Positions 42,214-59,314 of a DNA stretch of 64,000 bases are shown here, piece by piece (the stretch's first letter is position 1; each line of letters opens with the position of its first letter). The DNA is from Syntrophomonadaceae bacterium (lineage in GTDB: Bacteria > Bacillota > PH28-bin88). Both the position numbers and the translations under genes were made by a program. The notes beneath the pieces are model-generated. The model was not told the origin of the DNA, searched no databases, and was given only the letters and a program-made list of their open reading frames with translations. The stretch covers positions 1 through 64,000 of the forward strand of contig JAGXSE010000056.1 of the NCBI GenBank assembly GCA_018333865.1, read 5' to 3'.

Positions 42214-42699
42214 TTATTGCTCAGATACCTGCATTATATGCGCATCTATATATCCGGACTGCAAAAAAATAACACCGTATGTTCCGCATTTACCTGCTCT
42301 TTGGCGGCTAATGCTGCCAGGGTTGAACAGGTGGACCCCTCCTTCGGGTTGATTTAAGGGAATATGGGTATGACCGAAAATGACCAAACCGGCCCGCACC
42401 TGCAGTGCCCGGTGCCTTAACTGCTCCCAGCCTTCTTTCACCCGCTGCTGATGGCCGTGGGTCAAAAGAATCCGGACTCCTGCAGCCTCCCAAACCTCTT
42501 CTTCAGGGCCGCCGCCTCCCCACCAATCACAGTTCCCCCTAACAGCTACAACCTTCAGACCTGCCTCAGCGGCCAGGGTAATTCCATCTCCGTAATAATC
42601 TCCCCCGTGTACTAACAGATCTCCCGGCTGTGCGTCCAAGAGCACTCGCCTGGCAAGAGAGAGATTCCGGTGCGTATCACTGAACACCCACAGTTTCAT
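42214..42699 (-). CDS. YfcE/MJ0936-type metallophosphoesterase
   Basis: Calcineurin-like phosphodiesterase of 161 residues. The metal-binding motifs are in order: FSDTHRN, VHGGDYYGD, GNCDWWG, LTHGH and FGHTHIP. Relatives hydrolyse simple phosphodiesters; the natural substrate is unknown. It lies 13 bases downstream of rdgB, a pairing common in Firmicutes. Confidence 0.92.
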   Translation of the reverse strand: MKLWVFSDTHRNLSLARRVLLDAQPGDLLVHGGDYYGDGITLAAEAGLKVVAVRGNCDWWGGGGPEEEVWEAAGVRILLTHGHQQRVKEGWEQLRHRALQVRAGLVIFGHTHIPLNQPEGGVHLFNPGSISRQRAGKCGTYGVIFLQSGYIDAHIMQVSEQ

Positions 42700-42712: not shown

Positions 42713-43309
42713 CTACTTGATCAGCATCGCCAAGACTTTTTTTACTGCCTGAAAGGCTTGTGCCCTGTGGCTGATCCTGTTTTTTATTTCCAGCTCCAGC
42801 TGAGCCATCGTCAGGCCGAATTCCGGCAAGAAGAACAGGGGATCGTAGCCAAAACCGCGATTACCGCAGGGAGCCAGTGCAATCATCCCTTCACAGGAGC
42901 CTTCGGCCAAAAACTCTTCCCCTTCCGGGGTAACTACTGCAAGCACACAGCGAAACCGGGCAGTCCGGCGTTCTTGGGATACATCGCCCAGCAGGCCCAG
43001 CAGTTTCTCATTGTTTCGCCGGTCGTTACCAGGCTCGCCCGCAAAACGTGCCGATAGGACACCAGGAGCACCATCAAGGCAATCCACCTCAAGCCCGGAA
43101 TCGTCTGCAACCACTAATAAACCGGTGGCTTTTGCCACAGCCCTGGCTTTAATCAAGGCATTTTCCGTAAAAGTAGACCCTGTTTCCTCTATTTCAGGGA
43201 TGCCGGGAAAATCTTCTAAGCTTAAGACATGAACAGAATAGTCTTTGACTAAATCCCTGAATTCAGCCAGCTTGCCGATGTTTCTGGTAGCTAATACTAA
43301 TGATCTCAC
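42713..43309 (-). CDS. rdgB: XTP/dITP pyrophosphatase RdgB
   Basis: Ham1/RdgB house-cleaning enzyme of 198 residues that converts ITP, dITP and XTP to monophosphates. The [11 protein letters not shown] start, [40 protein letters not shown] and [14 protein letters not shown] motifs are intact. It overlaps the rph stop by 4 bases. Confidence 0.95.
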
Positions 43310-44049
43310 AGCTTTTCACCTGTGTGGAAAGCCAACCCGCCCAAGGCCTCTTTCTGAATGGCAATCAGCCTGTCGATTGCAGAATGAGCCAGGTTAATCA
43401 TCCCATCCATTTCCTCTCTTGTAAAGGGGTAATCCTCAGCTGTACCTTGAACCTCCACAATTTTACCCTGGCCGGTCATTACCACATTCATATCAACCTG
43501 AGCCCGGCTGTCCTCCTCATAGCACAGGTCGATCATTAACTTGCCGTCTACCTTGCCGACGCTGACCGCAGCCAGATAATCAATCAGGGGCATTTGAGTC
43601 AAAGCGTCTCTTTCCCTTAACTTTAAAAAGGCCTCGGCAAGTGCGATAAAACTTCCGGTCACTGAAGCTGTACGGGTTCCCCCGTCAGCCTGAATAACAT
43701 CACAATCGATCCAAATGGTCCTCTCTCCCAGTTTGGCCAAATCAACCACAGCCCTCAGAGAGCGGCCGATTAACCTTTGTATTTCATGAGTACGGCCACC
43801 AATTTTTCCTTTGACAACCTCCCTGGGTGTCCTAACTTGGGTAGCCCTAGGCAACATAGCATATTCAGCTGTAATCCAACCCTTGCCTCCCCCCTTAAGA
43901 AAAGGAGGTACTTTTTCCTCTACTGAGGCAGTACAGATTACTTTTGTATTACCCATTTCGATCAGCACGGAGCCCTCTGCCTGCTTGATAAAACCCCTGG
44001 TTATCTGAACAGGCCTCAATTGTTCAGGCATTCTTTGATCCAAACGCAT
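43306..44049 (-). CDS. rph: ribonuclease PH
   Basis: Phosphorolytic 3' exoribonuclease of 247 residues that trims tRNA 3' ends. Motifs include [37 protein letters not shown] and [16 protein letters not shown]. The start is ATG 44049, with AGGAGTGAAAGAA upstream; the longer frame to 44085 is unsupported. Operon with rdgB and the phosphoesterase. Confidence 0.95.
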
Positions 44050-44105
44050 TTCTTTCACTCCTAACTGCTGGCCAATTTTATTCAACCTTGGTGTCTCCCA
44101 GTTCC

Positions 44106-44129
44106 TTAGAGCGGTTAGCTACCTGTGAT
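44106..44129. repeat. end fragment of the palindromic repeat family
   Basis: TTAGAGCGGTTAGCTACCTG followed by TGAT matches the right end of the copies at 6028 and 41665. On the minus strand it supplies the last codons and stop of the P-loop gene at 44119. Confidence 0.6.
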
Positions 44130-45030
44130 AGAAGGTTTGCTCTAATCCGGTTTCTCCTACCAGCCCGGCAATAGTATATAGTTTCTGAACCGGATCCCAG
44201 TGAAACTCCTTTAATAGCCGAAAGCCGGAGATTTCTCCGGTATTGGACAGGTGAATACGGGGTCCGGTACAGCGAACCAGCAGGCCGCCAATTTTTATAT
44301 GTTGCTCATCATGGTAGGATATCGGCAGACGCCGGTTGATGTAGTTTAACACCTGGTTTTCTACTTCATGCAGATCAATATCCGGCACTTCAGCAAACTC
44401 CATTAAAAAACCGTGACGGATGTCACTGTGCACCTTAGGTTTGGTGATGCCCTTCGACTCCAGTACCAATCCGGTTAAGTCCTCCGCACTGTGGGCCATT
44501 TTGCGGTACAGAATTGAATGAAACACAATCTTAGCAATTTCCTGGGGATCAGGTCCGAACACTCCTGGCCGGGTAACAATTACTTCTTCCCCAACACCAA
44601 TTAAAACATCGGGCTTGGTCTGCAGATACGGGTGCAATATGTCGTAGTGCTCGGCCACTACCCTTTTACCTTCCAGCAATGCCTTTTTCACCAGTTTAGC
44701 CAGTTCGCCAATCTGGTGAAACGCCATTTCAAACCTGACATCCAGATGATAGGTATGAAACCGGAAATGGTCCCTTTCACCATCTGCTAAGAGGGGTAAT
44801 GGGCGCACATTCACACCGTCGTCATCATTGGTAAGTTCTAGGCCGGGAAACATTCCCCTAATGAGCAGGGATTTCCCGGCACCGGCGTCGCCGATCAGCC
44901 CGATCAACCGGTCATCCGGGCTTAAATAGCGCTGGGCAATATTAGTTCCTAAGAGCAATAACCTTTTTTTGCCCCGGGGCGCAAAATAGACCGCATGCCT
45001 TAGATATTCATGCATTACGCTGACAGCCAA
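44119..45030 (-). CDS. P-loop protein with AlaRS second-additional-domain-like tail
   Basis: Uncharacterised 303-residue protein. The N-terminal half is a P-loop NTPase/kinase-like domain: Walker A GLIGDAGAGKSLLIRGMFPG near residues 45-60, and a hydrophobic strand VVAEHYDIL later. The C-terminal third (about 245-300) reads GGLLVRCTGPRIHLSNTGEISGFRLL, which resembles the tRNA_SAD domain of alanyl/threonyl-tRNA synthetases and AlaX editing proteins (CGGTHxxNTGEIG), with the Cys-His spacing changed from 3 to 5. This suggests a nucleotide-dependent protein related to uridine-kinase/SAD fusions. Reaction unknown. It stands alone downstream of the phosphonate block, and its stop codon falls in a repeat fragment. 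Confidence 0.75.
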   Translation of the reverse strand: MAVSVMHEYLRHAVYFAPRGKKRLLLLGTNIAQRYLSPDDRLIGLIGDAGAGKSLLIRGMFPGLELTNDDDGVNVRPLPLLADGERDHFRFHTYHLDVRFEMAFHQIGELAKLVKKALLEGKRVVAEHYDILHPYLQTKPDVLIGVGEEVIVTRPGVFGPDPQEIAKIVFHSILYRKMAHSAEDLTGLVLESKGITKPKVHSDIRHGFLMEFAEVPDIDLHEVENQVLNYINRRLPISYHDEQHIKIGGLLVRCTGPRIHLSNTGEISGFRLLKEFHWDPVQKLYTIAGLVGETGLEQTFYHR

Positions 45031-45159: not shown

Positions 45160-45912
45160 TTAACCAGGAACATGGTAAGTCAAGCCTGCTTGAGCCAGTT
45201 CAAGGGAACTGCCGTATTCCGCCTCGGCTTCCCGCCGGATCAGGGCCAGGTCGTATTCCGGCCAGAAATGGGTCAATACACAACGGGAAACCCTGGCTTC
45301 CCGCGCAAGCCGCCCAGCCTCGCGGCTGGTTAGGTGACCTGTGGCTGCATACTCCCTGTGTTGGTCCGCAACGCTTGCTTCACATAACAAGAGGCCTGCG
45401 CCGGACGAGAAATCTACCAGATCCAGACTCCAGGCGGTATCGGAAGAAAAAACTACCTTTCCGGTGGCCGACGATATTTTTACAGCAAATGCAGGTATTT
45501 TATGCACAGTCAACATCCACTGCAGGCAAAATGGACCTGTGTTGACCTGGGGAGGCACAGGAGGTTCTAAAGGCTTCAGCTCAAAGGTATTGGTATAGCC
45601 GGCGAACCTGGCGAATAGATCTTCCGGTTGAGACGGAAGGTAAAGAGGCATTTTCCCGGTTCGGGAACCATCCATTAAACTGCCGGCCAAGGCATAGTGC
45701 AGAGCCGGCAGATCACTGGAGTGATCTGCATGAAGATGGGAAATTATAACCCCATTAAGACGACGGAAGTCCATCTTTTCCTGCAATTTTGACATTACAC
45801 CATGGCCACACTCTAATAGCAGCGTCCACTCCCCTTCCCTAATTAGATAACCGGAGCAGGCTCCGCCCGCCCGGGGATAAGGCGCCCAACAACCCAATAC
45901 TGTAACCTGCAT
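45160..45912 (-). CDS. metallo-beta-lactamase-fold hydrolase, possible PhnP substitute
   Basis: RNase Z/PhnP-like metallo-hydrolase of about 250 residues. Metal ligands are in VIISHLHADHSSDL (HxHxDH), a later Asp in VVFSSDTAWSLDL, and a His in CVLTHFWPEY. The start is ATG 45912, which has GGAGGTATCCC upstream. Its frame overlaps the phosphatase gene before it (45927) only through the unsupported upstream part, but the two are nearly contiguous. It is the last gene of the phosphonate run, which has no PhnP; PhnP opens the 1,2-cyclic phosphate of phosphoribosyl left by C-P lyase and is of this same fold. That role is inferred. A decayed second copy of its first codons lies at 57740-57820. Confidence 0.85.
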   Translation of the reverse strand: MQVTVLGCWAPYPRAGGACSGYLIREGEWTLLLECGHGVMSKLQEKMDFRRLNGVIISHLHADHSSDLPALHYALAGSLMDGSRTGKMPLYLPSQPEDLFARFAGYTNTFELKPLEPPVPPQVNTGPFCLQWMLTVHKIPAFAVKISSATGKVVFSSDTAWSLDLVDFSSGAGLLLCEASVADQHREYAATGHLTSREAGRLAREARVSRCVLTHFWPEYDLALIRREAEAEYGSSLELAQAGLTYHVPG

Positions 45913-45926
45913 GGGATACCTCCATT

Positions 45927-46697
45927 TCAATTAGATACGAGATCATATATTTCTTTGGAAGCACAAGCAATAAAAGCTATTTGCCTGCCGGTAAAATCTA
46001 CTTCTTCCGCAAATAAATCCCGGTAATATCCGCCAGCTTCACTGAGGATTATTGCTGCTGCAGCGAAATCCCATGCCTTCAATTTAGCAGAAATAAAAAT
46101 ATGAACTTCTCCCAAAGCTATTCTGCACATGATCAGCGAAGCAACCCCAGTGCACCGGTGTCCACGAATTTTTTTCGCCAAGTCAAATATTTTAATCCTG
46201 TTCGTGTTCATAAGCATCTCTATGGTATTCAGGCTTAGGTCCATTATGCAATCTTTCAGAGGAACAGGAGTAAGTTTGCATATTTTTACCCCGTTTAAAT
46301 AGGCCCCTTGCCCGGTTATTCCCAAATAAAAGTCCCGTTTCATTACATCGTAGACCATCCCGAAAACAGGACGGCTGTCTTGATAAAGGGCCAGGGAAAT
46401 AGCAAAATCTCTTTGCAAGCAGACAAAATTGGTTGTGCCGTCAATAGGGTCGAGAAACCAGACATGCCCAGACAAATCGGTACTGTTTTTTCTTTCTTCC
46501 GCAATAAACTTATGTCTGGGAAACCGTTTTTTAATGCTAGTAATGATATATTCTTCAACCATCCTGTCATATTCTGTCAATAACTCTTGATGGTCGTTAT
46601 TCTTGTAACTGCAACTAATTTTCTTGCTTAAAGCATTCCGCAACATATCGCCGGCTTCTAGAACAATTGTTTTAACATAAGCTATAGTTTCTTTCAT
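45927..46697 (-). CDS. inositol-monophosphatase-family sugar phosphatase
   Basis: Metal-dependent phosphatase of 256 residues. Motif A is FLDPIDGTTNFV and motif B AWDFAAAAIILSEAGG; the N-terminal EE of FIAEERKNS adds a metal ligand. Family substrates include inositol phosphates, fructose bisphosphates and nucleoside bisphosphates. It lies 43 bases downstream of phnL and directly before the PhnP-like hydrolase, where other operons carry phnN. It could dephosphorylate the ribose bisphosphate made at the end of the pathway, by-passing ribose-1,5-bisphosphokinase. This is context inference; ordinary inositol phosphatase activity is the alternative. Confidence 0.88.
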   Translation of the reverse strand: MKETIAYVKTIVLEAGDMLRNALSKKISCSYKNNDHQELLTEYDRMVEEYIITSIKKRFPRHKFIAEERKNSTDLSGHVWFLDPIDGTTNFVCLQRDFAISLALYQDSRPVFGMVYDVMKRDFYLGITGQGAYLNGVKICKLTPVPLKDCIMDLSLNTIEMLMNTNRIKIFDLAKKIRGHRCTGVASLIMCRIALGEVHIFISAKLKAWDFAAAAIILSEAGGYYRDLFAEEVDFTGRQIAFIACASKEIYDLVSN

Positions 46698-46740: not shown

Positions 46741-47469
46741 TCAGCTTTGATGAACAAAAACCCTCTCCTGGCAAGCAAGTAACCGGCCATTTTCAACACG
46801 ATATTCCCGATGGCAGAGCTTTTCCATGAAGTCCAGATCATGGAAAATTCCCAGCATGGTAGTTTTGGCCTGCATTAACTGCAAGATCAGCTCCCGCACC
46901 TTTAGTTTAGAACCCGGATCCAAACTGGCTGTAGGTTCATCTAACAGCAATAGCCGGGGCTGTTTGACCATGGCTTGCGCAATATTGAGTCTTAGCTTCT
47001 CACCACCGGAGAAGTTGCTGGGGTAGCTTTCCCACAGCTTTTGATCAAGTTCAAAGTGACTCAGTATTTTTTCCGCTTCCCTTTGCGCAGCCTTGCCGTT
47101 TAAGCCCTTTTCCAAAGCCGCATGTTTTACCGCATCTATCGCCGTAGTCCGGGGCATGATCCTGAGGAATTGGGAAACATAGCTGATCTCATATTTCCGC
47201 AAGTAAATAATCTGGCGCAAATCAGCCTGAGCCAGATCAAGGCACCCAAACTTTTCTGAATTATACCAGATTTCCCCTTCCTGGGGAAGATAGGTTTGAT
47301 AGATCAAGCGAAAGATGGTTGATTTGCCGCTGCCGCTTTTGCCTGTAATCCCGATGAACTCACCTTTTTTTACTGATAAACTTATCTCGTCGAGGGCCTT
47401 GATCTGTTTTTTTAACCCATGGATGGTAAATGACTTGGAAAGTCCATTTATCGTTAAGATTGTTTCCAT
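46741..47469 (-). CDS. phnL: C-P lyase ABC-type subunit PhnL
   Basis: ABC ATPase of 242 residues that associates with the PhnGHIJK core and not with a transporter. Walker A GKSGSGKSTIFRL, signature FSGGEKLRLNIAQAM and Walker B LLLLDEPTASLD are present, with H-loop GIFHD. It lies 12 bases after the acetyltransferase gene. Distinguished from PhnC and PhnK by position and by the RKYEISYVSQFLRIMPRTTAID stretch, which is typical of PhnL. Confidence 0.92.
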   Translation of the reverse strand: METILTINGLSKSFTIHGLKKQIKALDEISLSVKKGEFIGITGKSGSGKSTIFRLIYQTYLPQEGEIWYNSEKFGCLDLAQADLRQIIYLRKYEISYVSQFLRIMPRTTAIDAVKHAALEKGLNGKAAQREAEKILSHFELDQKLWESYPSNFSGGEKLRLNIAQAMVKQPRLLLLDEPTASLDPGSKLKVRELILQLMQAKTTMLGIFHDLDFMEKLCHREYRVENGRLLACQERVFVHQS

Positions 47470-47481
47470 TAAATCACCTGC

Positions 47482-48096
47482 TTATAGGGAGTACTTGCTG
47501 ACAAATTCTTCTGCCGGCAAGGAGAAGTCCGCTAGCCGCTCTTTGATCGTGTCATAGGGCCAATTCCACCACTTTATGGACTCCAGTTTGCCAATGATTT
47601 CTTGGGGAAACCTCTTGCGCACCGGTTTTGCCGGTACTCCCACCACAATGGCGTAAGGCTCCACATCTTTGGTGACGATGGCTCCGCTTCCTACTACCGC
47701 TCCATTGCCTACGGTTACTTTCGGCATGATGATGGCGCCATGGCCAATCCAGGTGTCGTGGCCTATAGTTGTTACCTGAGTGGTCCTCCATTGGAGAAAT
47801 GCCTCATCATCCTTGGTATCCAGGCCATACATGATCCGGCGATAGGTAAAATGATGCAGGGTCGGGCGCTCTATGGGATGTTCCGTGGGGCCAATGCGCA
47901 CCATAGCGGCAATATTAGCAAACTTGCCGACATGGACATTCTGTAAAAAACAAAACTGTCCCGTGTAGGAGTAATCCCCGAAGACGACATTTTCAAAGAA
48001 GTTGTAAGTGCCGACTTCAGTGTAATAGCCCAACTGACTGTTCACCAGCTGGCAATGCTCGGCGACAAGTGGTTTGGGGCTTAGGATTTTGCCCAT
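47482..48096 (-). CDS. phosphonate-associated hexapeptide acetyltransferase
   Basis: Left-handed beta-helix acyltransferase of 204 residues. Hexapeptide repeats run through DTWIGHGAIIMPKVTVGNGAVVGSGAIVTKDVEPYAIVVGVPAKPVRKRF, the chloramphenicol-acetyltransferase-like (XAT) pattern. Members of this subfamily are regularly found in phn operons and are thought to acetylate aminophosphonates, as PhnO does, but from an unrelated fold. The start is ATG 48096 after GGAAGAAGACG. It lies between phnM and phnL, 14 bases from phnM. Confidence 0.88.
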   Translation of the reverse strand: MGKILSPKPLVAEHCQLVNSQLGYYTEVGTYNFFENVVFGDYSYTGQFCFLQNVHVGKFANIAAMVRIGPTEHPIERPTLHHFTYRRIMYGLDTKDDEAFLQWRTTQVTTIGHDTWIGHGAIIMPKVTVGNGAVVGSGAIVTKDVEPYAIVVGVPAKPVRKRFPQEIIGKLESIKWWNWPYDTIKERLADFSLPAEEFVSKYSL

Positions 48097-48109
48097 CGTC
48101 TTCTTCCTT

Positions 48110-49288
48110 TCATAGGCGGTAATAGGTATTTTGCACCAGCTTCCCATCCACAAAGACCGAGGTAATGATCGGGAAATAGCCGTCGATGTTTTCGATGATC
48201 AGAACATCGGCCTTTTTCCCCGGTGCGAGAGAGCCATAGTGCCGATCCATTCTAACGGCCCTGGCCGGGTTTATGGTCACCAACTTCATCATCTCGACCA
48301 GATCCTGGCCCCGTTTATGCTGCATGGCAAAAATCGCATGAAGCAGGGAAGGGGGATAATAGTCGCTGCACAGAATATCCAGGGAATTTTGCATGATGGC
48401 CTCCGCGGCGGACATATTGCCGTTATGGGACCCCCCCAGGATCACATTTGGGGCGCCGGCGAGGGTGTACATCCCCTTTTCCTTAGCCTTTTTGGCCACT
48501 TCCAGGGTAATGGGGAACTCGCTGATGGTAGCTCCCAGGCTATGAACCAGATCAACCTTCTCCGGGGTATCGTCATCATGGGAGGCGATGGCAATCCTGT
48601 TTGCTTTGGCCAGCGCGGCAATCTCGCGGAGCTCCTCAATGGTGGCTTTGGCCTTATGCTGATGCTTATAAATGATGTCAGCAAACTCCTCATCGGCCAG
48701 ACTGCGGTAACCCTTGATAATCTGGCGGTAGGCCTCCAGATCCCGGTACTGGCCCTGCCCGGGGGAATGATCCATAAAGGAGAGGAGCTGAACCTTTCTT
48801 CCCTGAATGTAAGCCTTTAGATTTGCGATTTCCTCCAGATTATCAATCTCGAAACGCACATGAAAATTATGGCGGATTAAATACTGGCCCTGGCGGGTTT
48901 CGGCGATGCTATCCATGAGCTTTTGCACATTCTCCGGATCCCTGATCGGCTTCTGGCCAAGCTCCGAGGTTTTAAATAGGGACAGGGAATGGAAGATGGT
49001 GGTAATGCCGTGAGCAGCCAGTTGTTTCTCAGTTTCCCGGATGGCCATCTGGAAATCCATCACAGATGTAGGCCGAGGGGCCGCCATGAATTCGATGTAA
49101 TCCGAATGGATATCGATAAATCCCGGCGCCACAAAGCCATTACCAGCATCGATGAGGCGGATATTAGAATAGTTACGGTACTTACCCTGTGGAGCGATTT
49201 CCGCGATGAGGTCATTTTGGATAACCAGATCATAACCTGTGATGATGCTGTTTTCGGTGATGATCTGCCCGTTGGTAATAACATACAT
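48110..49288 (-). CDS. phnM: ribosyl-phosphonate triphosphate diphosphatase PhnM
   Basis: Amidohydrolase-superfamily enzyme of 392 residues that removes pyrophosphate from alpha-D-ribose 1-methylphosphonate 5-triphosphate. The metal ligands are in PGFIDIHSDYIE (HxD-like), IASHDDDTPEKV, and the late GSHNGNMSAAEA and SDYYPPSLLHAIF motifs characteristic of PhnM. Start ATG 49288 with GAGGGGGGAC upstream. It follows phnK by 28 bases. Confidence 0.95.
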   Translation of the reverse strand: MYVITNGQIITENSIITGYDLVIQNDLIAEIAPQGKYRNYSNIRLIDAGNGFVAPGFIDIHSDYIEFMAAPRPTSVMDFQMAIRETEKQLAAHGITTIFHSLSLFKTSELGQKPIRDPENVQKLMDSIAETRQGQYLIRHNFHVRFEIDNLEEIANLKAYIQGRKVQLLSFMDHSPGQGQYRDLEAYRQIIKGYRSLADEEFADIIYKHQHKAKATIEELREIAALAKANRIAIASHDDDTPEKVDLVHSLGATISEFPITLEVAKKAKEKGMYTLAGAPNVILGGSHNGNMSAAEAIMQNSLDILCSDYYPPSLLHAIFAMQHKRGQDLVEMMKLVTINPARAVRMDRHYGSLAPGKKADVLIIENIDGYFPIITSVFVDGKLVQNTYYRL

Positions 49289-49316: not shown

Positions 49317-50183
49317 TTACAGGAGCGAGTATACCAGCTGTTGGGTATGCCAATGCTGCGGGTCTTCCAGGATCTGATCTGTTAAACCCTCTTCGACAAC
49401 CTTGCCGTCCAGCATGACCATGGTCCGGTCGGCCAACATGCGGATGACCCCCAGATCGTGGGAAACCACCAGGATGCTGATGGGCTCCTGCCTTTGGATA
49501 GTCTTGATCAGGTCCAGTACGCTGGCTTGCACTGATAAATCCAGACCGGTAGTGATCTCATCCAATAACAGGATGGGAGGATTGTTGGATAAGGCCTTGG
49601 CGATTTGGACCCGTTGCTGCATACCACCGGAAAAGTGCTTGGGCGCTTCCTTGATGCGGGAGACCGGAATGCTGACATGCCGCAAAAGCTCTTCACCGCG
49701 ACTCTCCATGCCGCCTACATGCCTGCCCCCGGCAGCGATGAGCTTTTCCGCAATATTGCCAATAGAAGTGAAATCCATCTTCAGCCCCATCAGGGGGTTT
49801 TGATAGACCATTCCCATAACATGGTTGCGGATGTAGCGTTTTTGTTGGGATGATGCCAAAAACAGGTTCTTTTCACCCTGATGATAAGTGCTGATATAGG
49901 CCTCCCCGCTGCTGACTTCCTGATCATAATAAAGACAGCGCATCAAGGTGGATTTGCCGCTGCCGCTCTCCCCAACAACCCCTAAAACTTCTCCGGGATA
50001 AAGGTCAAAAGAAACCTGAGAGCAGGCATAAACGGTGCCACAGTTTTGGCAATAATTCTTTTCGAGTCTTTCTCCTTGATCCGGCCGGCAGAACTTGCAG
50101 CCAGCCCCAAACTGCTTACTGAGATTTTTAACAGTTAAGATGGGCTTTTCCAATAAGTTGGGTTTTGTAAAGACATCCATCAT
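49317..50183 (-). CDS. phnK: C-P lyase ABC-type subunit PhnK with cysteine-rich insert
   Basis: ABC ATPase of 288 residues that docks on the PhnJ side of the C-P lyase core. Walker A GESGSGKS (71-78), signature FSGGMQQRVQIAKAL, Walker B LLLDEITTGLD. The first strand (ILTVKNLSKQFGAG) and the Walker A region are separated by an extra segment of about 28 residues with five cysteines (29, 32, 45, 48, 54; CxxC-x12-CxxC-x5-C), absent from the E. coli protein. It looks like a zinc or Fe-S knuckle. I use the ATG at 50183 with GAGGGATAAC upstream; the frame runs to a TTG at 50195. It overlaps or abuts the phnJ stop. Confidence 0.93.
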   Translation of the reverse strand: MMDVFTKPNLLEKPILTVKNLSKQFGAGCKFCRPDQGERLEKNYCQNCGTVYACSQVSFDLYPGEVLGVVGESGSGKSTLMRCLYYDQEVSSGEAYISTYHQGEKNLFLASSQQKRYIRNHVMGMVYQNPLMGLKMDFTSIGNIAEKLIAAGGRHVGGMESRGEELLRHVSIPVSRIKEAPKHFSGGMQQRVQIAKALSNNPPILLLDEITTGLDLSVQASVLDLIKTIQRQEPISILVVSHDLGVIRMLADRTMVMLDGKVVEEGLTDQILEDPQHWHTQQLVYSLL

Positions 50184-50191
50184 GTTATCCC

Positions 50192-51028
50192 TCAATCTTG
50201 TTTCTCGTTTTGCCGCTTCAGACAGTAGCTGGTGTCATTGCACTGGTAATAGGTTCTTTCTGCGTCAACCAGTTCATCAAGGAAGATCCCAGCCTGGCCG
50301 CACAGCCGGCAGGTCTGATGCTGAAAATTCTCCGGCTTGAAAGGATAGTCCTCAAAGGCTAAAGAAACTACCCGGGTAAAGGGAGGAACAGCATAGACCT
50401 TCTTCTCCCGTCCCGCTCCCAAGAGGATTAAGGCAGAGGAGCAGTTCATTTTAGGGTTGTCATAGCGGGGAATGGGACTGGGGGCCATCACATAACGATT
50501 ATGGACCAGTACCGGATGATCCGCCCCGGTAGCCATCTGGCCATAATTCATGATCTGTTCAAAAAGCAGCAGCCAGGCCCCGCTGTACTCCTGTTCGGCA
50601 TGGAGTTTTTTTGTGGCTAATTCGCTGGGTTCGAAATACCGTAAAGGCTCAGGAATAGGCACCTGTAAGACCAATATTTGGTTTTCCGTCAAGGGAATTT
50701 CCGGAATTCTGTGCCGTGATTGAATGATTGTGGCCTGAGCCGTATCCTCAGTGACACGAACGCCGGTAGTTTTGGTGACCAGTTTCTTGATGTTAACGGC
50801 ATTTACGGATTCATCGGAGCCTTGGTCGATTACTTTTAAAATATCGGGGCGACCAATCAATGCTAAGGTCAACTGCAAACCACCAGTTCCCCAGCCCCGG
50901 GCGATAGGCATTTCCCTGGAGGCAAAGGGAACCTGATAGCCGGGAATTGCAACGGCTTTTAAAATTGCCCGCCGGATTTCCCGTTTAGACCCCTCATCGA
51001 AAAAAGCGAAATTGTAGTGATTATTCAT
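50192..51028 (-). CDS. phnJ: C-P lyase radical-SAM subunit PhnJ
   Basis: Catalytic radical S-adenosylmethionine subunit of 278 residues that breaks the carbon-phosphorus bond. The Fe-S cysteines are CRLC plus a third 20 residues on, and the reactive Cys in CNDTSYC follows after five residues; the E. coli spacing to the third Cys is two longer. The N terminus YNFAFFDEGSKREIRRAILKAVAIPGYQVPF and RGWGTGGLQLTLALIG are strongly conserved PhnJ signatures. It overlaps the phnI stop by 4 bases, showing translational coupling. Confidence 0.96.
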   Translation of the reverse strand: MNNHYNFAFFDEGSKREIRRAILKAVAIPGYQVPFASREMPIARGWGTGGLQLTLALIGRPDILKVIDQGSDESVNAVNIKKLVTKTTGVRVTEDTAQATIIQSRHRIPEIPLTENQILVLQVPIPEPLRYFEPSELATKKLHAEQEYSGAWLLLFEQIMNYGQMATGADHPVLVHNRYVMAPSPIPRYDNPKMNCSSALILLGAGREKKVYAVPPFTRVVSLAFEDYPFKPENFQHQTCRLCGQAGIFLDELVDAERTYYQCNDTSYCLKRQNEKQD

Positions 51029-52152
51029 GGCTTTAACTCCCCGGTGACAGCAGTAATTTGTTCTTTTGTTTTCCTGATGCTGTCCAGTTTGGATTGGAAG
51101 GTAACGTAGTGGGGCAGCTTCAAGTGGGAGACAAAACCGGTGGCCTCTACGGAATCGATATGCATCAGGACAAATTCTTCATTATGGGTCGGATATTGCG
51201 GGTTTCCCGTTTCCAGACACTGGTCCAAAATGCTCATGGCAATGGCCTTGGTCTCATTCTGTCCAAAACAGATACCATAGCCGGGAACAAAAGCAAGTTC
51301 TTTCTTGCCGGCGTTTTTTTCGGTCCCCTGGGGAAAAAGGGTTTCCACTTCTGTCACCTTAATCTCCCCCAGATAATAAGCGTCTCCCTCGCCTGCGGCT
51401 TCCTGGAGGGGGTCAGCCACAAAAATTGGCAAATGCCCCACCCGCAGTTCGCCCACGGTAGGGTGCTGCGCGCCATACCCCCTCAGGGCTGCGTATGCCA
51501 GGGCGGTCATAGCACCGGTCTGTCCCCGGGTCAGCGTCTGCAGCCGCTGGCTGCGGGAGGCGGGAAATTGCACACTCTTTTTGGTGATGTCATCGGGGGG
51601 CGTATCGTTAACCGGACAAACAGGCAATAGCCCCTGGTCCCGCAAATATTGCATAACTTTAGGCAAGGCATGGAGTTTGGCCGTACCGGTAAAAGAAGCT
51701 TTTGTCTGGTTAAATTCCTGCAGCCACGCATCTACTTCCGCCTGGGATTCATCCAGTAAAGCAAAATCCAGCATCCGGTGGGTGTAATCCTGGGATGACC
51801 CCAGAATCTGTCCTCCGGGGAGATCCTTAAAGCTGGCCGAGATGCGGCGCTCTGCCTCCATGTCCTCTGGTTTTACTGTGTGCGAATAGTATTTGCGCGG
51901 GAGGGTGGAACGGTAAGCCCGCAGGATAAAGACCGCTTCTTCCGGGCTGCCCTCCGCCTGCTTGATGGCCATCGCTGCTAAAGGTTCACAATAGAGGCTA
52001 CTTTCCGACATCACCTGATCGATTAAACTGCGAAGTCCTGCCTCAACTTCCGGGATGCCTAAAACCCTGCCCTTCCGCAACCGTTCGTATTTAAGCCTGC
52101 GAATGGATTCCTCGATGGCATAAGCCCCGCCCTTAACAGCTACATAAGCCAT
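51025..52152 (-). CDS. phnI: C-P lyase core subunit PhnI
   Basis: Nucleosidase-like core subunit of 375 residues that with PhnG, PhnH and PhnL swaps adenine for phosphonate on ATP. The start MAYVAVKGGAYAIEESIRRLKYERL and the LPRKYYSHTVKPEDMEAERRISASFKDLPGGQILG region are diagnostic. Three bases separate it from phnH. Confidence 0.95.
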   Translation of the reverse strand: MAYVAVKGGAYAIEESIRRLKYERLRKGRVLGIPEVEAGLRSLIDQVMSESSLYCEPLAAMAIKQAEGSPEEAVFILRAYRSTLPRKYYSHTVKPEDMEAERRISASFKDLPGGQILGSSQDYTHRMLDFALLDESQAEVDAWLQEFNQTKASFTGTAKLHALPKVMQYLRDQGLLPVCPVNDTPPDDITKKSVQFPASRSQRLQTLTRGQTGAMTALAYAALRGYGAQHPTVGELRVGHLPIFVADPLQEAAGEGDAYYLGEIKVTEVETLFPQGTEKNAGKKELAFVPGYGICFGQNETKAIAMSILDQCLETGNPQYPTHNEEFVLMHIDSVEATGFVSHLKLPHYVTFQSKLDSIRKTKEQITAVTGELKP

Positions 52153-52155
52153 TTG

Positions 52156-52746
52156 TTACCATCGCTCCTCAATTGTTGTAGTCCTGGGAATGCAGATGAC
52201 CTGACCGCCGGCGTCGAGAAAAACCATATCAATCCCCAAAGGGTACTCCTTGATCTGCTCCTCCCTTTTTTTCAACCATTGTCCCGCGGCTTTTATCTCT
52301 ACCAAATGCTCATTTTCAATTCCGGGGCCGCTTAAGGCCAATCTCTGCCCGGAGGTAATCTCATACGCTTCGACTATAACTGTAGCGGAACAGTGGGGAT
52401 CGGTAAGTATCCCTGGTTTGGCCACTGCCAAAGCATCTTCCAGGTTTTGGCCGTCAGCATCTGCGAGGATAAAAATAAAGTCGGCTTCCTGGCATTTTAT
52501 TACCCTGGCATAGGTCAATTGGCTTAAGAGCCGGGTCAGGGACGCTTCTTGAGGTGAAACTACTTTGAAGCTGACCTCTGTGTCCAAAAGCATCAGTGCC
52601 AAAAGCAGTGTTCCCGGATAACAATGGGCATCCAGGTCCACTTTAGCCGCCTCTAAGTCCAGATTGCTCACAATTCCTGGCCGGGACATGGAAAAGAGTA
52701 CCTTGCGGTATGCGGATTGAAGATCATGCACCAGGTCCATTTTCAT
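52156..52746 (-). CDS. phnH: C-P lyase core subunit PhnH
   Basis: Core subunit of 196 residues, PLP-transferase-like fold without cofactor. FSMSRPGIVSNLDLE, VIVEAYEITSGQRLALSGPGIEN and FLDAGGQVICIPRTT match PhnH. The ATG at 52746 has AGGAGCAAAGAG upstream; the open frame to 52776 is not supported. The start lies within the end of phnG (stop at 52724), a 23-base overlap. Confidence 0.93.
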   Translation of the reverse strand: MKMDLVHDLQSAYRKVLFSMSRPGIVSNLDLEAAKVDLDAHCYPGTLLLALMLLDTEVSFKVVSPQEASLTRLLSQLTYARVIKCQEADFIFILADADGQNLEDALAVAKPGILTDPHCSATVIVEAYEITSGQRLALSGPGIENEHLVEIKAAGQWLKKREEQIKEYPLGIDMVFLDAGGQVICIPRTTTIEERW

Positions 52747-53179
52747 CTCTTTGCTCCTTAACGTCCATGGTCTCAAAATTTACTTGCGTTTTCAGAATAT
52801 GGGATGCTGTTTGTTCCTTAACCTTTGCGATAACAGCTTCTTCCAGCAAAAGCATCTCCTGCCAATCTACGGTCTCCGGCAGGCGGGAATTATAAGCAGC
52901 ATCGATAACTGCTAAATGGAAGGCTAACTCTGGCTCATCCCCTTTAACTATGCCGATACCTATAGCAGCGCCGATTTGCACCTTGCACTCAGTAACCAAG
53001 AGCTCCCCCAGATAAAAAAGGCTGTTTTTAGCCCCTTCCCGCATCTTGATCATCACCAGCCCATGATGGGGCTTTTCGATTACCTGTACCGGATAATTAT
53101 TAAGCACCTCTGTTGCCATTTGCAGGGAGAGATGGCGTGAGCCCTTGATCAGGACCTCAGTCCTTTGTTTCCGGTTCAT
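52724..53179 (-). CDS. phnG: C-P lyase core subunit PhnG
   Basis: Core subunit of 151 residues. Signatures: EVLIKGSRHLSLQMATEV, the VIEKPHHGLVMIKMREGA stretch, FYLGELLVTECKVQIG and GIGIVKGDEPELAFHLAVIDAAY. The C terminus extends past the usual end over the phnH start. First gene of the C-P lyase core, 24 bases after the transporter genes. Confidence 0.94.
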   Translation of the reverse strand: MNRKQRTEVLIKGSRHLSLQMATEVLNNYPVQVIEKPHHGLVMIKMREGAKNSLFYLGELLVTECKVQIGAAIGIGIVKGDEPELAFHLAVIDAAYNSRLPETVDWQEMLLLEEAVIAKVKEQTASHILKTQVNFETMDVKEQRDENGPGA

Positions 53180-53203: not shown

Positions 53204-54034
53204 CTACTGCAGTACCTCTTGCCCGATGATCCTCCTGCGCAGGTAGTCGGATATTTTTTCGGCCAACCAGACCACAACCAGGGTCATCACGGTGATTGCT
53301 AACGCGTCAGCATATCTGAACAGGCTCATGGCCAGATGGAGTTCAAACCCGATGCCGCCGCCGCCGACCACACCCAAAAAAAGGGCTGCTCGCAGATTGA
53401 TATCAAACTTGTAGAGGGTGTTGGCGATTAGTGAAGGGGCGACCTGGGGCAGCACGGCATAACGGATGACCTGCAGCTTTGATGCACCTGTGGATACCAA
53501 CGACTCCAGTGGTTTGGGATCAACATTTTCCATAGCTTCGGCGAAAAGTTTTCCGAGCATGCCTACCGAACCTATGGCGAGGGCGATCATTCCGGCAAAC
53601 GGGCCAAGACCAACAACCACCACCAACAAAAGAATAATGATCAGAGTGGGAACGGCGCGCTCTGCAGCCATCAGCCATTTAGCAGCTGTGCGGACTAGCG
53701 GAGACGGCGTGAGATTGCCGGCCGCCAGCAAGGCCAGAAAGAAGGAAAATAAGGTACCAAGGAAGGTGCCGAGGAAAGCCATGGACAGCACCTCCAGAAT
53801 CGACCACAATACTTTTCCGCGAGTAAAGACAGCCCAGTTGGGCGGGAACATCTCGCTGACCAGACTAAAGAAGTGGGGTATGCCTTCCCAAAACTGCCGG
53901 GGGCTGATGTTTAACGCAAAAAGGCACCACACGAAAAGCAGCATAAAAAAACTCCCGGGCCAAAACCATCGCCGGTACCAGCGCTGGTAGTGCACTTCTT
54001 CATTTTGCTTTTGCTTTTTAGGGTGCTTATTCAT
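53204..54034 (-). CDS. phnE: phosphonate ABC transporter permease PhnE (second copy)
   Basis: Inner-membrane permease of 276 residues with about six membrane segments. The EAA-type cytoplasmic loop reads EAMENVDPKPLESLVSTGASKLQVIRYAVLPQVAP. It is paralogous to the permease at 54031 and overlaps it by 4 bases; Firmicute phn systems often carry such a pair, presumably a heterodimer. Confidence 0.93.
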   Translation of the reverse strand: MNKHPKKQKQNEEVHYQRWYRRWFWPGSFFMLLFVWCLFALNISPRQFWEGIPHFFSLVSEMFPPNWAVFTRGKVLWSILEVLSMAFLGTFLGTLFSFFLALLAAGNLTPSPLVRTAAKWLMAAERAVPTLIIILLLVVVVGLGPFAGMIALAIGSVGMLGKLFAEAMENVDPKPLESLVSTGASKLQVIRYAVLPQVAPSLIANTLYKFDINLRAALFLGVVGGGGIGFELHLAMSLFRYADALAITVMTLVVVWLAEKISDYLRRRIIGQEVLQ

Positions 54035-54840
54035 CTCAACACCTCTTGTCCGAAGAGCCTCGTTCTCAAGACATCAGAAAGTTTCTCACAGGCCAGAACT
54101 AAAATCAGGACGACAATGATGGCGGAGAAGGCGGTCTGGTAATCTAAGAGCCTGATGGACACCACCAGGTCAAACCCGATGCCTCCAGCTCCTACCGCAC
54201 CCAAGAAGATAGACATGCGGATGTTGGTATCGAAGCGGTACAAACTGTTGGCGATCAGCGACGGCATAACCTGGGGCAATACTGCGTAGCGGATGATCTG
54301 CCCCTTGGTAGCCCCGACGGCAACCAGCGCCTCCATCGGCCTGGGATCAACCTCTTCGATGGCATCGGCAAACAGCTTTCCCAGCATGCCTACCGAACTA
54401 ACGGCTAAAGCCATCACCCCCGGAAACGGCCCCAAGCCAACAATGGCAACGAAAAAGAGGAGGATAATCAAATCCGGCAAAGCTCTTTGTGCCGAGAGCA
54501 AACCCCGCATCGTCTCGCGGACGGCCCGGTTGGGGTTAATGTTGGCGGCTGCGAATAAGCTGACTACAAAGGCGGCCAGGATACCGAAAACAGTTCCTAC
54601 AAACGCAATTTGCAGTGTTTTTAGAGCCGGTGCCATCAACTGGGGGAAGGCCGCCCAGTCGGGCGGGAGCATGTGTCCCAGCAAATCGATGCCTCGCGGG
54701 ATTCCTGCCGCCAGCACCGCGGGGTCAACCCGGCTAACAACGGCTGCACCCCACAAGAGCAAGACCAGGATGCTGACCGGGAAAAGATAAGACCGGTATC
54801 TGCTCAGGGTCTTTATGGCAGTCAGTTTCATGGCGATCAA
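54031..54840 (-). CDS. phnE: phosphonate ABC transporter permease PhnE (first copy)
   Basis: Permease of 269 residues, six membrane segments, EAA loop DAIEEVDPRPMEALVAVGATKGQIIRYAVLPQVMP. The internal ATG giving MKLTAIKTL is an alternative start. It overlaps the phnC stop by a few bases. Confidence 0.93.
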   Translation of the reverse strand: MIAMKLTAIKTLSRYRSYLFPVSILVLLLWGAAVVSRVDPAVLAAGIPRGIDLLGHMLPPDWAAFPQLMAPALKTLQIAFVGTVFGILAAFVVSLFAAANINPNRAVRETMRGLLSAQRALPDLIILLFFVAIVGLGPFPGVMALAVSSVGMLGKLFADAIEEVDPRPMEALVAVGATKGQIIRYAVLPQVMPSLIANSLYRFDTNIRMSIFLGAVGAGGIGFDLVVSIRLLDYQTAFSAIIVVLILVLACEKLSDVLRTRLFGQEVLR

Positions 54841-55613
54841 GCTACCGCCACCTGACGTGCCGGCTGTTCCGGCAAATCAGTGCCATAGATCGCTATCAGC
54901 ATGCTGGGGGAGATATGGGGGCTGCCATCGTAAAGCACCACCCCGTCTTTGATGCCGATCGCCCTGGTGCAGTACTGGCTGACGAGCTTTGGCGAGTGGA
55001 AAACACCTACAATCGCCATTTGCCGGGTGAGGGGCTGCAAGTAATCCAGAACCATTTCCGTGTTTTTAGGGTCGAGGTTTGACACCGGTTCGTCGGCCAG
55101 CAGCAAATAAGGCTCCTGGAAAAGTGCCCGGGCAATGGCCACACGCTGCATTTCGCCCCCGCTCAGGGTCTGTGCCTGGCGATCGGCCAAGTGCCTGACA
55201 CCCACTTTTTCTAAAGCCTCCAAAGCAACCTCCACCTCGTCGTCTGTAAACCCGTAGACTAAACTGCGGATTGGGCTGATCCGGCCCAGTCTCCCGGTCA
55301 ATACATTTTCGAGTACGCTCAGTCTTTTGACCAGAATCGAGCCCTGGAAGATCATCCCGATGTGCCGTTGAATTTCTCTTAAGTCCTTGCCTTTCTTCCC
55401 GTTGATTTTTTGCGCATAATGACCCCCGTTGATGATCACCTCGCCGCTGTCCGGCGTGGTCAAACCGTTGATGCACCGCAGCAAAACCGTCTTCCCGACC
55501 CCGCTTTCGCCCAGAATCCCAACGAATTCGCCTTTTTTTACTTCAAAGCTGATATCCCTTAAGAGCAGCCGGCCGTCAGGCAGCTTTTTGGCGATATTTT
55601 TTACGGATAGCAT
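54837..55613 (-). CDS. phnC: phosphonate ABC transporter ATP-binding protein PhnC
   Basis: Transporter ATPase of 258 residues. Walker A GESGVGKTVLLRC, signature LSGGEMQRVAIARAL, Walker B LLADEPVSNLDP, and H-loop GVFHS, where the usual His is kept. IGMIFQGSILVKRLSVLENVLTGRLG is a PhnC signature. It lies between the binding protein and the two permeases. Confidence 0.94.
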   Translation of the reverse strand: MLSVKNIAKKLPDGRLLLRDISFEVKKGEFVGILGESGVGKTVLLRCINGLTTPDSGEVIINGGHYAQKINGKKGKDLREIQRHIGMIFQGSILVKRLSVLENVLTGRLGRISPIRSLVYGFTDDEVEVALEALEKVGVRHLADRQAQTLSGGEMQRVAIARALFQEPYLLLADEPVSNLDPKNTEMVLDYLQPLTRQMAIVGVFHSPKLVSQYCTRAIGIKDGVVLYDGSPHISPSMLIAIYGTDLPEQPARQVAVA

Positions 55614-55702: not shown

Positions 55703-56659
55703 CTATTTAGCCTGCAGCTTACCCAGCCCGATGGCTACCTGCCGGATAAATTCGTATTCAGCACCGGTCACGGCGACATAACTTTTATTTTTTTCCCACA
55801 TGCCTTCCCACTGGGCAAAGGCTTCAGGAGCCTTTTTTGGCATATCCAAAAAGGCTTGCTGGATCCGCTTGATCAAGGCCGGATCCAGATCTCCCCTTAC
55901 GGCGACCGGCGACCGGGGAATGGGGTCCGACTTCCAAATTACCCGGACATCTTCCCCCTTGACCACTCCGCCCGCTATGGCCTTCTGGTATGGCCCTTCC
56001 CAGGTGGCGCCTAAGTCCACCTTGCGAGCGTGAACAGCCAGGATGGAGGCATCGTGTCCGCCGGCAAAAATGACTTCCTTAAAAGCTTGATCCACTTTGA
56101 TACCAATAGATTCCATATATCCCTTTGGAATTAGGTAGCCGGAGGTCGAGGCCGGATCGACAAAGGAAACGGTGAGACTGGCGGCCCGGGCTTTGACGTC
56201 ATCAATGTTTTGCAGCCCACTGTCCTTGTGGGTGATCAAAATACTGTGGTAAACACTGAGTTTTCCATCGGCATCCCCCCCGGCGACAATGGCCTGGGCG
56301 TTGGCCCTTTCTGCAGCCAACACGTAGGAAAAGGGACCAAAGTAGGCAATCTCCACTTTTTTGGCGCGCATGGCCTCAATCACTGCAGTGTAGTCAAGGG
56401 CCTTGAACATCTCGATCTTGATCCCAATCTCTTTTTCTAAATACTGCCTGGCCGGCTCAAATCTGTTCATCATCTCCACGATGTCTTCAGCCGGAATCAA
56501 GGCCAGCCTGAGGACCTGCGGGGCCGCTGCTTTAGGTGTTGCCTGTTCTTTTGGTGCGCAGCCGATGACCGAGAAGGAAGCAATCAGGATCAAAACTAAG
56601 CCGGTTAATACCAGTAACCTAATCTCTTTACCCAAGTTTACAAGCACAGAAAAACACAT
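55703..56659 (-). CDS. phnD: phosphonate-binding lipoprotein PhnD
   Basis: Substrate-binding protein of 318 residues, membrane-anchored by a lipobox (VIGC, Cys34). The PhnD/PtxB signatures VLRLALIPAEDI, IAYFGPFSYVLAAERANAQAIVAGG and DPASTSGYLIPKGYMES are present. It captures phosphonates outside the membrane for PhnCEE. It follows the GntR regulator by 26 bases. Confidence 0.94.
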   Translation of the reverse strand: MCFSVLVNLGKEIRLLVLTGLVLILIASFSVIGCAPKEQATPKAAAPQVLRLALIPAEDIVEMMNRFEPARQYLEKEIGIKIEMFKALDYTAVIEAMRAKKVEIAYFGPFSYVLAAERANAQAIVAGGDADGKLSVYHSILITHKDSGLQNIDDVKARAASLTVSFVDPASTSGYLIPKGYMESIGIKVDQAFKEVIFAGGHDASILAVHARKVDLGATWEGPYQKAIAGGVVKGEDVRVIWKSDPIPRSPVAVRGDLDPALIKRIQQAFLDMPKKAPEAFAQWEGMWEKNKSYVAVTGAEYEFIRQVAIGLGKLQAK

Positions 56660-56685: not shown

Positions 56686-57501
56686 TCAACTCCCCAAATC
56701 GTCGCGACAAAGATTTTCTGACTTTGTGCCGTCTTGGCCCGCTTCCCACCTCCCTCCAAAGAAGCTGTTCGTCCCGAATTCGACACAAAGCCGGCTCATA
56801 TCTCCGCGTGTCCGGGCAATGCCGTATTCAACCAGGTAGCCGGCGGGATGACACATCAGGCTTTCTGTTCGCAAGATGGGCACTTCGACCGGCATTTTCA
56901 GGTGACCGGCATCCTTCGCTCCGGCAAAGGCTGCCTGGAAGACCGTTCTTATTCGTACCGGCCGGAAGTGGTAATGATTTTCCAAAATAGCGTAAAGGGA
57001 ATAGAATCCTTCCAGGTAACGTTCCATACCGGGTACCGCTTCTTCCAGGATCACCGAGGTGGTGACTGAAACAGGGAAATCCTCCACATAGCGCAGGATT
57101 TCCAAGCGGTACACCAGTTCACCGGCAGTCAAGCGAAGATTCCGGCCTTCTTCTGCCGAGGGGATGCCTTTTTCCCACTCCAACAGCACACTCTGATGCC
57201 TCTGGCCCGCCTGCCGCATATTGTCTGTAAAGCGGGTGTTCCCTGAAACATAGTAGGAAACCACCGGCGGCCTGGGACGCACGTAAGAACCTTTACCCTG
57301 AAAAGTTGTGGTCCACCCCATTTTTTCGACTCGGCCGAGGGCTTGTCGCACCGCATGCCTGTTGATACCAAACTGCTTGATCAGCTCAGTCTCTGATGGG
57401 ATTTTATCCCCGGCGGCAAACTCGCCCCGCCTGATTTTTTCAATGATGTACTCAACTAACGGCAGGTAATTAAAGACGCACTTAGTTTTTGGCATCAGCA
57501 A
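56686..57501 (-). CDS. phnF: GntR/HutC-family regulator of the phn operon
   Basis: Transcription regulator of 271 residues: N-terminal winged helix (YIIEKIRRGEFAAGDKIPSETELIKQFGINRHAVRQALGRVEKMGW) and C-terminal UTRA ligand domain (GELVYRLEILRYVEDFPVSVTTSVI, ILRTESLMCHPAGYLVEYGIARTRGD). First gene of the phosphonate operon, so probably autoregulated. A candidate operator lies at 57562-57575. Confidence 0.9.
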   Translation of the reverse strand: MLMPKTKCVFNYLPLVEYIIEKIRRGEFAAGDKIPSETELIKQFGINRHAVRQALGRVEKMGWTTTFQGKGSYVRPRPPVVSYYVSGNTRFTDNMRQAGQRHQSVLLEWEKGIPSAEEGRNLRLTAGELVYRLEILRYVEDFPVSVTTSVILEEAVPGMERYLEGFYSLYAILENHYHFRPVRIRTVFQAAFAGAKDAGHLKMPVEVPILRTESLMCHPAGYLVEYGIARTRGDMSRLCVEFGTNSFFGGRWEAGQDGTKSENLCRDDLGS

Positions 57502-57859: not shown

Positions 57860-59314
57860 TTACTTTCCTTTTAAGATACCCTTGCCGATAGCATAAATAT
57901 CGTCCAACACCATTTGATAGGACGGGGTCCGGTTCTCCTGCCGCCCCCGCTCATTTACCCGCGCTGCGTGGACAGCCAGGACTTCGGCAGGGAGAGGAAG
58001 ATTCCCCGGTTCCAGCAGCCTTACAGCACCTTCTATATCTCGAACTGGCAGGACCCTGCCGGCATTAATACGGCTGGTGGAAAAGGGGATATCGATTACA
58101 CCCCGGTTAAAGGCTTCAACCACTCCTGCCCCAACACTACCATCACCCAAATCAATCACCTTATCTAAGATGCTCCGGGTTTCCAATCGAAGCAGTTCCT
58201 TCTCCTCCTTCAGCCCAGGATAGTCCACAAAGGCTTGCCGTTGATGTTTGACCAAATTGATAGCCTGTCTGGCGGACTTTAGCCCGGCATTAATTCCATC
58301 CAAACCGGGAAAACCAGCTGCCTCTCTGGGCGAGCGTACCATTATTTTATTAGCATTTCCCATGGCTGCTGTTACCGCTCCCCATACAATAACAGCATAG
58401 GCCCTGCTCTCATCCTGAGGCATTCCACCCATCCACTGATGAAATACTGTTGTTAAGACAACCTGACCATAACCCATCCGGTGAAAGTATTCATGACCGA
58501 GTTCCATCAAGGTACTGACCCCCGCCAGGTCTTGAATCAAATTACCTGTTTGCATATACCCCAGGGACAAGTGTTCTACCCCTTGCTCTGCAGCCAATAG
58601 TCCTTCCAGAATACTTACGCTGTGGGAAAGACAAGGAGGTAGCAAAGCCCCTCCCATAAAACCGCCAAATGGCTCCCTATGGATAGGGATTCCCTTTTCC
58701 CCGATTAAGCCAGCCAGTCTGTCCACATACTGCCAAAGAGCTATTGATTTCTCTAATGGCATATCTTTGATATAAGGAACATTACTTGAGATTCCTCCGC
58801 CCTCAATGCCGGTAAAGCCGCCTGCAACAGCAGTTTCAGCAGCCAGCCTGGCATCAACAGCCACGTGGCGCACTTGAACCGGCAGGCCGACCTGAGAAGT
58901 TATATATCTTCCTGCCATAACTCCGTGATTAATAATGGGGAAACCTGTTGCCTGATCCGGTATCTCACCTGAAGAATGCAATTCTGCCTCTAATTCCTGA
59001 AAACGACCCATGCGAGTTCTATGATCAATGGTAGTCGGCAGGATATCCGCCCCTCCATCCTGCTCCAGGCCTTGCAGGAACCTAAGATGATCCTCCAACA
59101 AGAGCCTGCCCCCCCGCGGCTGAACCAAAGTCTCTCCTTTTTCCTTAGCATCCAACATGCGCAGGGCGAGGTTCCTGCGGCGGGGTTCATTTGCCAGGAA
59201 TTCAATAGTTTCTTCCAGATTCGAGGAAACACCGGCAGGCCAAACCTGCAAAACCTCAGCGCGCATATCTTCCAGCATATCCAGAGGGATTTTTTCCTTA
59301 AAATAATTATCCAT
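57860..59314 (-). CDS. glmE: glutamate mutase epsilon subunit (methylaspartate mutase E)
   Basis: Catalytic TIM-barrel subunit of 484 residues of the adenosylcobalamin enzyme that interconverts L-glutamate and 3-methylaspartate. Strong family signatures: QATGFPIINHGVMAGR, VRHVAVDARLAAE, GGFTGIEGGGISSNVPYIKD, PLEKSIALWQYVDRL, REPFGGF and LSLGYMQTGNLIQD. The B12-binding S subunit, the reactivating MutL protein and methylaspartate ammonia-lyase that normally surround it are missing here, so it must find its partner elsewhere or act in a variant role. It has its own promoter and terminator, a single-gene unit. A MeaB-type GTPase lies 26 kb away. Confidence 0.88.
   Translation of the reverse strand: MDNYFKEKIPLDMLEDMRAEVLQVWPAGVSSNLEETIEFLANEPRRRNLALRMLDAKEKGETLVQPRGGRLLLEDHLRFLQGLEQDGGADILPTTIDHRTRMGRFQELEAELHSSGEIPDQATGFPIINHGVMAGRYITSQVGLPVQVRHVAVDARLAAETAVAGGFTGIEGGGISSNVPYIKDMPLEKSIALWQYVDRLAGLIGEKGIPIHREPFGGFMGGALLPPCLSHSVSILEGLLAAEQGVEHLSLGYMQTGNLIQDLAGVSTLMELGHEYFHRMGYGQVVLTTVFHQWMGGMPQDESRAYAVIVWGAVTAAMGNANKIMVRSPREAAGFPGLDGINAGLKSARQAINLVKHQRQAFVDYPGLKEEKELLRLETRSILDKVIDLGDGSVGAGVVEAFNRGVIDIPFSTSRINAGRVLPVRDIEGAVRLLEPGNLPLPAEVLAVHAARVNERGRQENRTPSYQMVLDDIYAIGKGILKGK

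Follow-up and report, generated by a model that had tools for sequence, protein, structure and literature searches.

The window analysed here, the whole stretch of 64,000 nucleotides from a Syntrophomonadaceae genome, contains a C-P lyase (phn) operon and a second gene cluster side by side on the reverse strand (Table 1). Family models and comparison with the operons of relatives gave the order phnF-D-C-E-E-G-H-I-J-K-M-hexapeptide transferase-L, upstream of a gene for an inositol-monophosphatase-family phosphatase (IMP). On one side the phn block is bordered by a methylaspartate mutase E-like gene, and on the other by the cluster MBL-kin-rph-rdgB-yfcE, where MBL is a metallo-beta-lactamase-fold predicted phosphodiesterase. 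The sequence-only reading had described two closely spaced hydrolase genes beside the operon on the same strand, and both ORFs were indeed found to be present and intact. The MBL ORF as listed spans 45160-45930 (-), but the sequence indicates a better start at the ATG at 45912, which is preceded by GGAGG and leaves a gap of 14 bp after the IMP stop codon. Given this short gap, IMP and MBL probably share a transcript.

Table 1. Genes at the phn locus of the window, and AP_endonuc_2 proteins in phn operons of relatives
Feature	Position	Strand	Evidence
Methylaspartate mutase E-like gene, borders phn block	57860..59314	-	TIGR01503
phnF-like regulator	56686..57501	-	TIGR02325 top match, 134 bits, under cut-off 156.8
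phnD, binding protein	55703..56659	-	TIGR03431, over cut-off
phnE, phnE, phnC, transporter genes (3 ORFs)	53204..55613	-	Position and homologs in relatives' operons
phnG	52724..53179	-	TIGR03293, over cut-off
phnH	52156..52776	-	TIGR03292, over cut-off
phnI	51025..52152	-	Position and orthologs in operons of relatives
phnJ, C-P lyase	50192..51028	-	PF06007, 456 bits
phnK	49317..50195	-	TIGR02323 top match, 217.5 bits, under cut-off
phnM	48110..49288	-	TIGR02318, over cut-off
phn-associated hexapeptide-repeat transferase	47482..48153	-	TIGR03308, 276 bits, over cut-off
phnL	46741..47469	-	TIGR02324 top match, 240.5 bits, slightly under cut-off 256.3
IMP, inositol-monophosphatase-family phosphatase, final gene of phn operon	45927..46697	-	PF00459, E 1e-53
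MBL, YhfI/Rv1339-type predicted phosphodiesterase with metallo-beta-lactamase fold, first in its cluster	45160..45912	-	PF12706/PF00753
kin, conserved protein between MBL and rph	44119..45030	-	Relatives 62-70% identical, same place
rph, RNase PH	43306..44085	-	TIGR01966
rdgB, XTP/dITP diphosphatase	42713..43309	-	NF011397
yfcE-type phosphodiesterase	42214..42699	-	TIGR00040
AP_endonuc_2 protein	L026:9576-10676		PF01261
AP_endonuc_2 protein	L028:8228-9166		PF01261
AP_endonuc_2 protein	L033:10205-11044		PF01261
AP_endonuc_2 protein	L038:11066-12157		PF01261
AP_endonuc_2 protein	L039:8197-9120		PF01261
AP_endonuc_2 protein	L042:10696-11685		PF01261

The operon thus runs from phnF to phnL without phnN or phnP, as had been noted before. 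Copies elsewhere in the genome, which the same reading had named as evidence against itself, were not found: the best genomic match of TIGR02322 (PhnN) was a guanylate kinase, with 56 of 156 bits, and TIGR03307 (PhnP) gave no match at E <= 0.001. The only genomic match of NF041661, the model of the PHP-family phosphoribosyl cyclic phosphate dihydrolase (PHP cPDH/PhnPP), was a CehA/McbA-like protein aligned over 62 positions with 24 bits, well short of full length. No protein of the AP_endonuc_2 type described below was found in this genome either. The searches for ring openers covered these families. As the draft assembly is rated 100% complete and consists of 71 contigs, the absence of phnN and phnP is likely, not certain.

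IMP scored 183 bits against PF00459 (cut-off 27), which places it in the inositol monophosphatase superfamily. It carries the catalytic motifs AEE-66, DPIDGT-83 and WDFAAA-209, and scored under the cut-off of each NCBIfam model that it matched. Its relatives were searched in 399 genomes of the same phylum, only 20 of which contain PhnJ. The three closest (G387, G086 and G235, with 59%, 55% and 53% identity) are all located in phn clusters, and form with IMP a single clade with a support of 99/97. Three further phn-linked IMPs, less closely related (G354, G005 and G110, 30-39%), join this clade together with one phn-free sequence, with a support of only 86/82. The seven phn-linked sequences stand together in the tree, except for this one phn-free row, and none of 500 shufflings of the labels clustered them as well. 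The phn-free sequence closest to the IMP clade (L121, from G092) was considered as a hidden phn locus and rejected, as its surroundings contain no C-P lyase genes. A contig scan with IMP yielded just two SAR86 loci (26%), and a plasmid search generic IMPases alone, each with less than 60% identity. No paper linking an inositol monophosphatase to C-P lyase or phnJ was found in literature searches. IMP is therefore a member of a phn-linked subfamily that recurs in the phn operons of distant relatives; the location of its closest relatives and the support of the clade indicate that it belongs to the phn genes, and its recurrence makes it reasonable that it acts as a phosphatase at the pathway's end.

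In three phn operons IMP lies directly 3' of a PHP gene (L035 of G387, L037 of G235 and the more distant operon L040), and in L029 a PHP gene comes just after IMP. The PHP genes of L035, L037 and L040 were best matched by NF041661, under its strict cut-off. In the window and in L027, IMP follows PhnL and neither genome contains an NF041661-type PHP dihydrolase; IMP occurs without any PHP cPDH in the window and G086, and five operons with a PHP gene lack an IMP beside it. A PHP cPDH/PhnPP-type enzyme, and not a metallo-beta-lactamase-fold enzyme, is the usual partner of IMP. Two other genes were observed in phn operons of relatives: a 259-codon ORF directly ahead of IMP in L029 (16833-17612), whose product has no Pfam or NCBIfam match, and a second PhnM-like gene past the transporter genes in two operons of one genus (L029:15096-16298 and L036:15378-16586).

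A TIM-barrel protein of the AP_endonuc_2 family is encoded close behind PhnM in six phn operons. In the nine genomes with a PHP dihydrolase in the operon no such protein was found, so that the two exclude each other in this sample, and IMP is absent from all six operons of this type. Alignment with E. coli endonuclease IV using hhalign matched the conserved H, E, DxxH, H and DxH positions, which we take to be the zinc ligands of that enzyme. The AP_endonuc_2 protein is a candidate new opener of the cyclic phosphate ring.

MBL carries HLHADH and the remaining invariant residues of its family. Its top matches among solved structures were 6kns (E 2.1e-40, residues 5-252) and 1zkp. The former is B. 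subtilis YhfI, the template for a model of Rv1339, and Rv1339 has been described as an atypical class-II cyclic-nucleotide phosphodiesterase (PMC9293780). The top NCBIfam match, NF041851 (E 1e-37, residues 7-253), reached 129.9 bits of a cut-off of 400; the YhfI/Rv1339 relation thus holds over the full length, but MBL is not an equivalog by this curated model. Identity to E. coli PhnP is ~20% over part of the protein, TIGR03307 does not match MBL, and the CxCxxC motif, presumably the zinc site of PhnP, is missing (WGCECAAC in E. coli PhnP, LGCWAPYPRAGGAC in MBL). The earlier proposal that MBL is a PhnP-fold cyclic-phosphate hydrolase of the phn pathway is not sustained by these data. MBL was also considered as a fast-evolving recruited copy, which was rejected because its divergence is in line with the rph-based expectation (mean residual -1.05, sd 4.5), as in an ordinary copy.

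The genomic context of MBL was compared in 20 ortholog loci fetched from the same phylum. Same-strand rph and rdgB genes lie within 6 kb of the MBL ortholog in every one of them, yfcE is mostly present and a kin homolog often. Eighteen of the 20 loci belong to PhnJ-less genomes, among them G002, which is of the same family as the window; in the two PhnJ-bearing genomes, G387 and G223, MBL is located at rph and the phn genes are on another contig. In G086, MBL is ~300 kb from phn. No MBL match was found in the fetched phn operon stretches of relatives (L026-L045), so that the phn-linked IMP-MBL pair that had been expected in relatives is not seen there. In mycobacteria Rv1339 presumably adjoins rph and rdgB homologs as well. 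The 303-residue kin product contains a P-loop-like stretch; profile searches with Pfam and NCBIfam gave no match to it.

MBL is thus the first gene of an older, separate cluster and by descent lies outside the phn system, so the standard enzymes are not replaced here by IMP and MBL as a matched pair. Of the proposed substitution for PhnN and PhnP, the IMP half, that of a recurrent phn-operon gene, is plausible and backed by linkage, whereas the MBL half lacks support. In phn-less relatives the mutase gene is also found near the MBL cluster (it was placed in L077, L079, L085, L090 and L091), and the order in the phn-free G002 is mutase, two dehydratase-type genes (the second named from its sequence alone), MBL, kin, rph, rdgB and yfcE. 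The phn block ending in IMP would thus have come to lie between the mutase gene and the MBL cluster, which would account for the present proximity of IMP and MBL.

C-P lyase yields 5-phosphoribosyl 1,2-cyclic phosphate, which in E. coli is processed by PhnP and then PhnN (PMC10574752). We propose that the cyclic product of PhnJ would be opened first and that IMP would then remove one phosphate from ribose 2,5- or 1,5-bisphosphate, so that ribose 5-phosphate and phosphate would form with no need of PhnN or ATP. In relatives the ring opener would be the PHP-family dihydrolase encoded beside IMP, a gene missing in this genome, and MBL most likely retains the family role of a cyclic-nucleotide-type phosphodiesterase. 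The overall explanation, in which the phn operon ends at IMP, MBL opens a different, older cluster and IMP is a ribose-bisphosphate phosphatase, is favoured with moderate confidence. Its gene-content part is held with high confidence; ribose bisphosphate as the IMP substrate, suggested by linkage and family chemistry only, is tentative, with slightly less than an even chance.

This explanation is compatible with an alternative in which the ring is opened by PhnPP or some other phosphodiesterase (for example a 2H enzyme) that is encoded elsewhere in the genome or lies in an assembly gap, IMP and MBL being uninvolved in ring opening. The number of contigs and the scope of the searches leave room for such an enzyme, the completeness rating and the CehA/McbA-like nature of the lone PHP match argue against it, and we regard it as a real though not the leading possibility.

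It is rather unlikely, but plausible enough to be weighed, that IMP acts as a general phosphatase on phosphate esters imported by PhnCDE, or on another by-product, with no role in the ribose steps. The IMP family has a broad substrate range and the PHP type of enzyme is known to need no partner, yet IMP co-occurs with it. Ghodge and co-workers reportedly found in 2013 that the PHP dihydrolase produces ribose 5-phosphate via ribose 2,5-bisphosphate. An ATP-free end of the pathway is therefore not new, and if the PHP enzyme already breaks both esters, a neighbouring IMP would be superfluous and could have another substrate. However, in three operons IMP immediately follows the PHP gene, and it is absent from the AP_endonuc_2-type operons, which suggests a link with one pathway branch.

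That MBL replaces PhnP as the opener and IMP removes the extra phosphate, MBL having been recruited once the phn block landed alongside and PHP was lost, is improbable: none of the four alternatives searched for was found in the genome, MBL has its own ribosome-binding site just behind IMP and its top-scoring family is a cyclic-nucleotide phosphodiesterase, but it belongs to another cluster by ancestry, diverges at the pace usual in its family, lacks CxCxxC, and in G086, also devoid of a PHP enzyme, is far from phn. From its position MBL could serve both roles, and as ring opener in this genome it is a possible, weak candidate. The full version, in which a YhfI/Rv1339-type MBL, acquired when the phn block inserted next to its gene, opens the ring after loss of PHP and a dedicated IMP-family ribose-bisphosphate phosphatase finishes the pathway, is if anything a shade less probable.

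Under the favoured explanation, in which the operon ends at IMP, the locus also cautions against adjacency as a guide to function, one of two neighbouring hydrolases being the first gene of the next cluster. C-P lyase operons without PhnN and PhnP are numerous and their finish is only partly known; the IMP subfamily offers a testable candidate for the final step. The known ATP-free finish, PHP cPDH/PhnPP, likewise makes PhnN unnecessary and neighbours IMP in related operons, but it is absent from the window and its genome, and its fold is unrelated to those of IMP and MBL. E. coli PhnP shares with MBL the metallo-beta-lactamase fold and phosphodiesterase type, and differs in the partial, low identity and the motif described above. 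The closest known relatives of MBL are B. subtilis YhfI and M. tuberculosis Rv1339, although its score remains far below the family cut-off. IMP has the fold and catalytic motifs of the inositol monophosphatase family (IMPase, HisN, CysQ and archaeal FBPase/IMPase), from which it is set apart by forming its own phn-linked clade.
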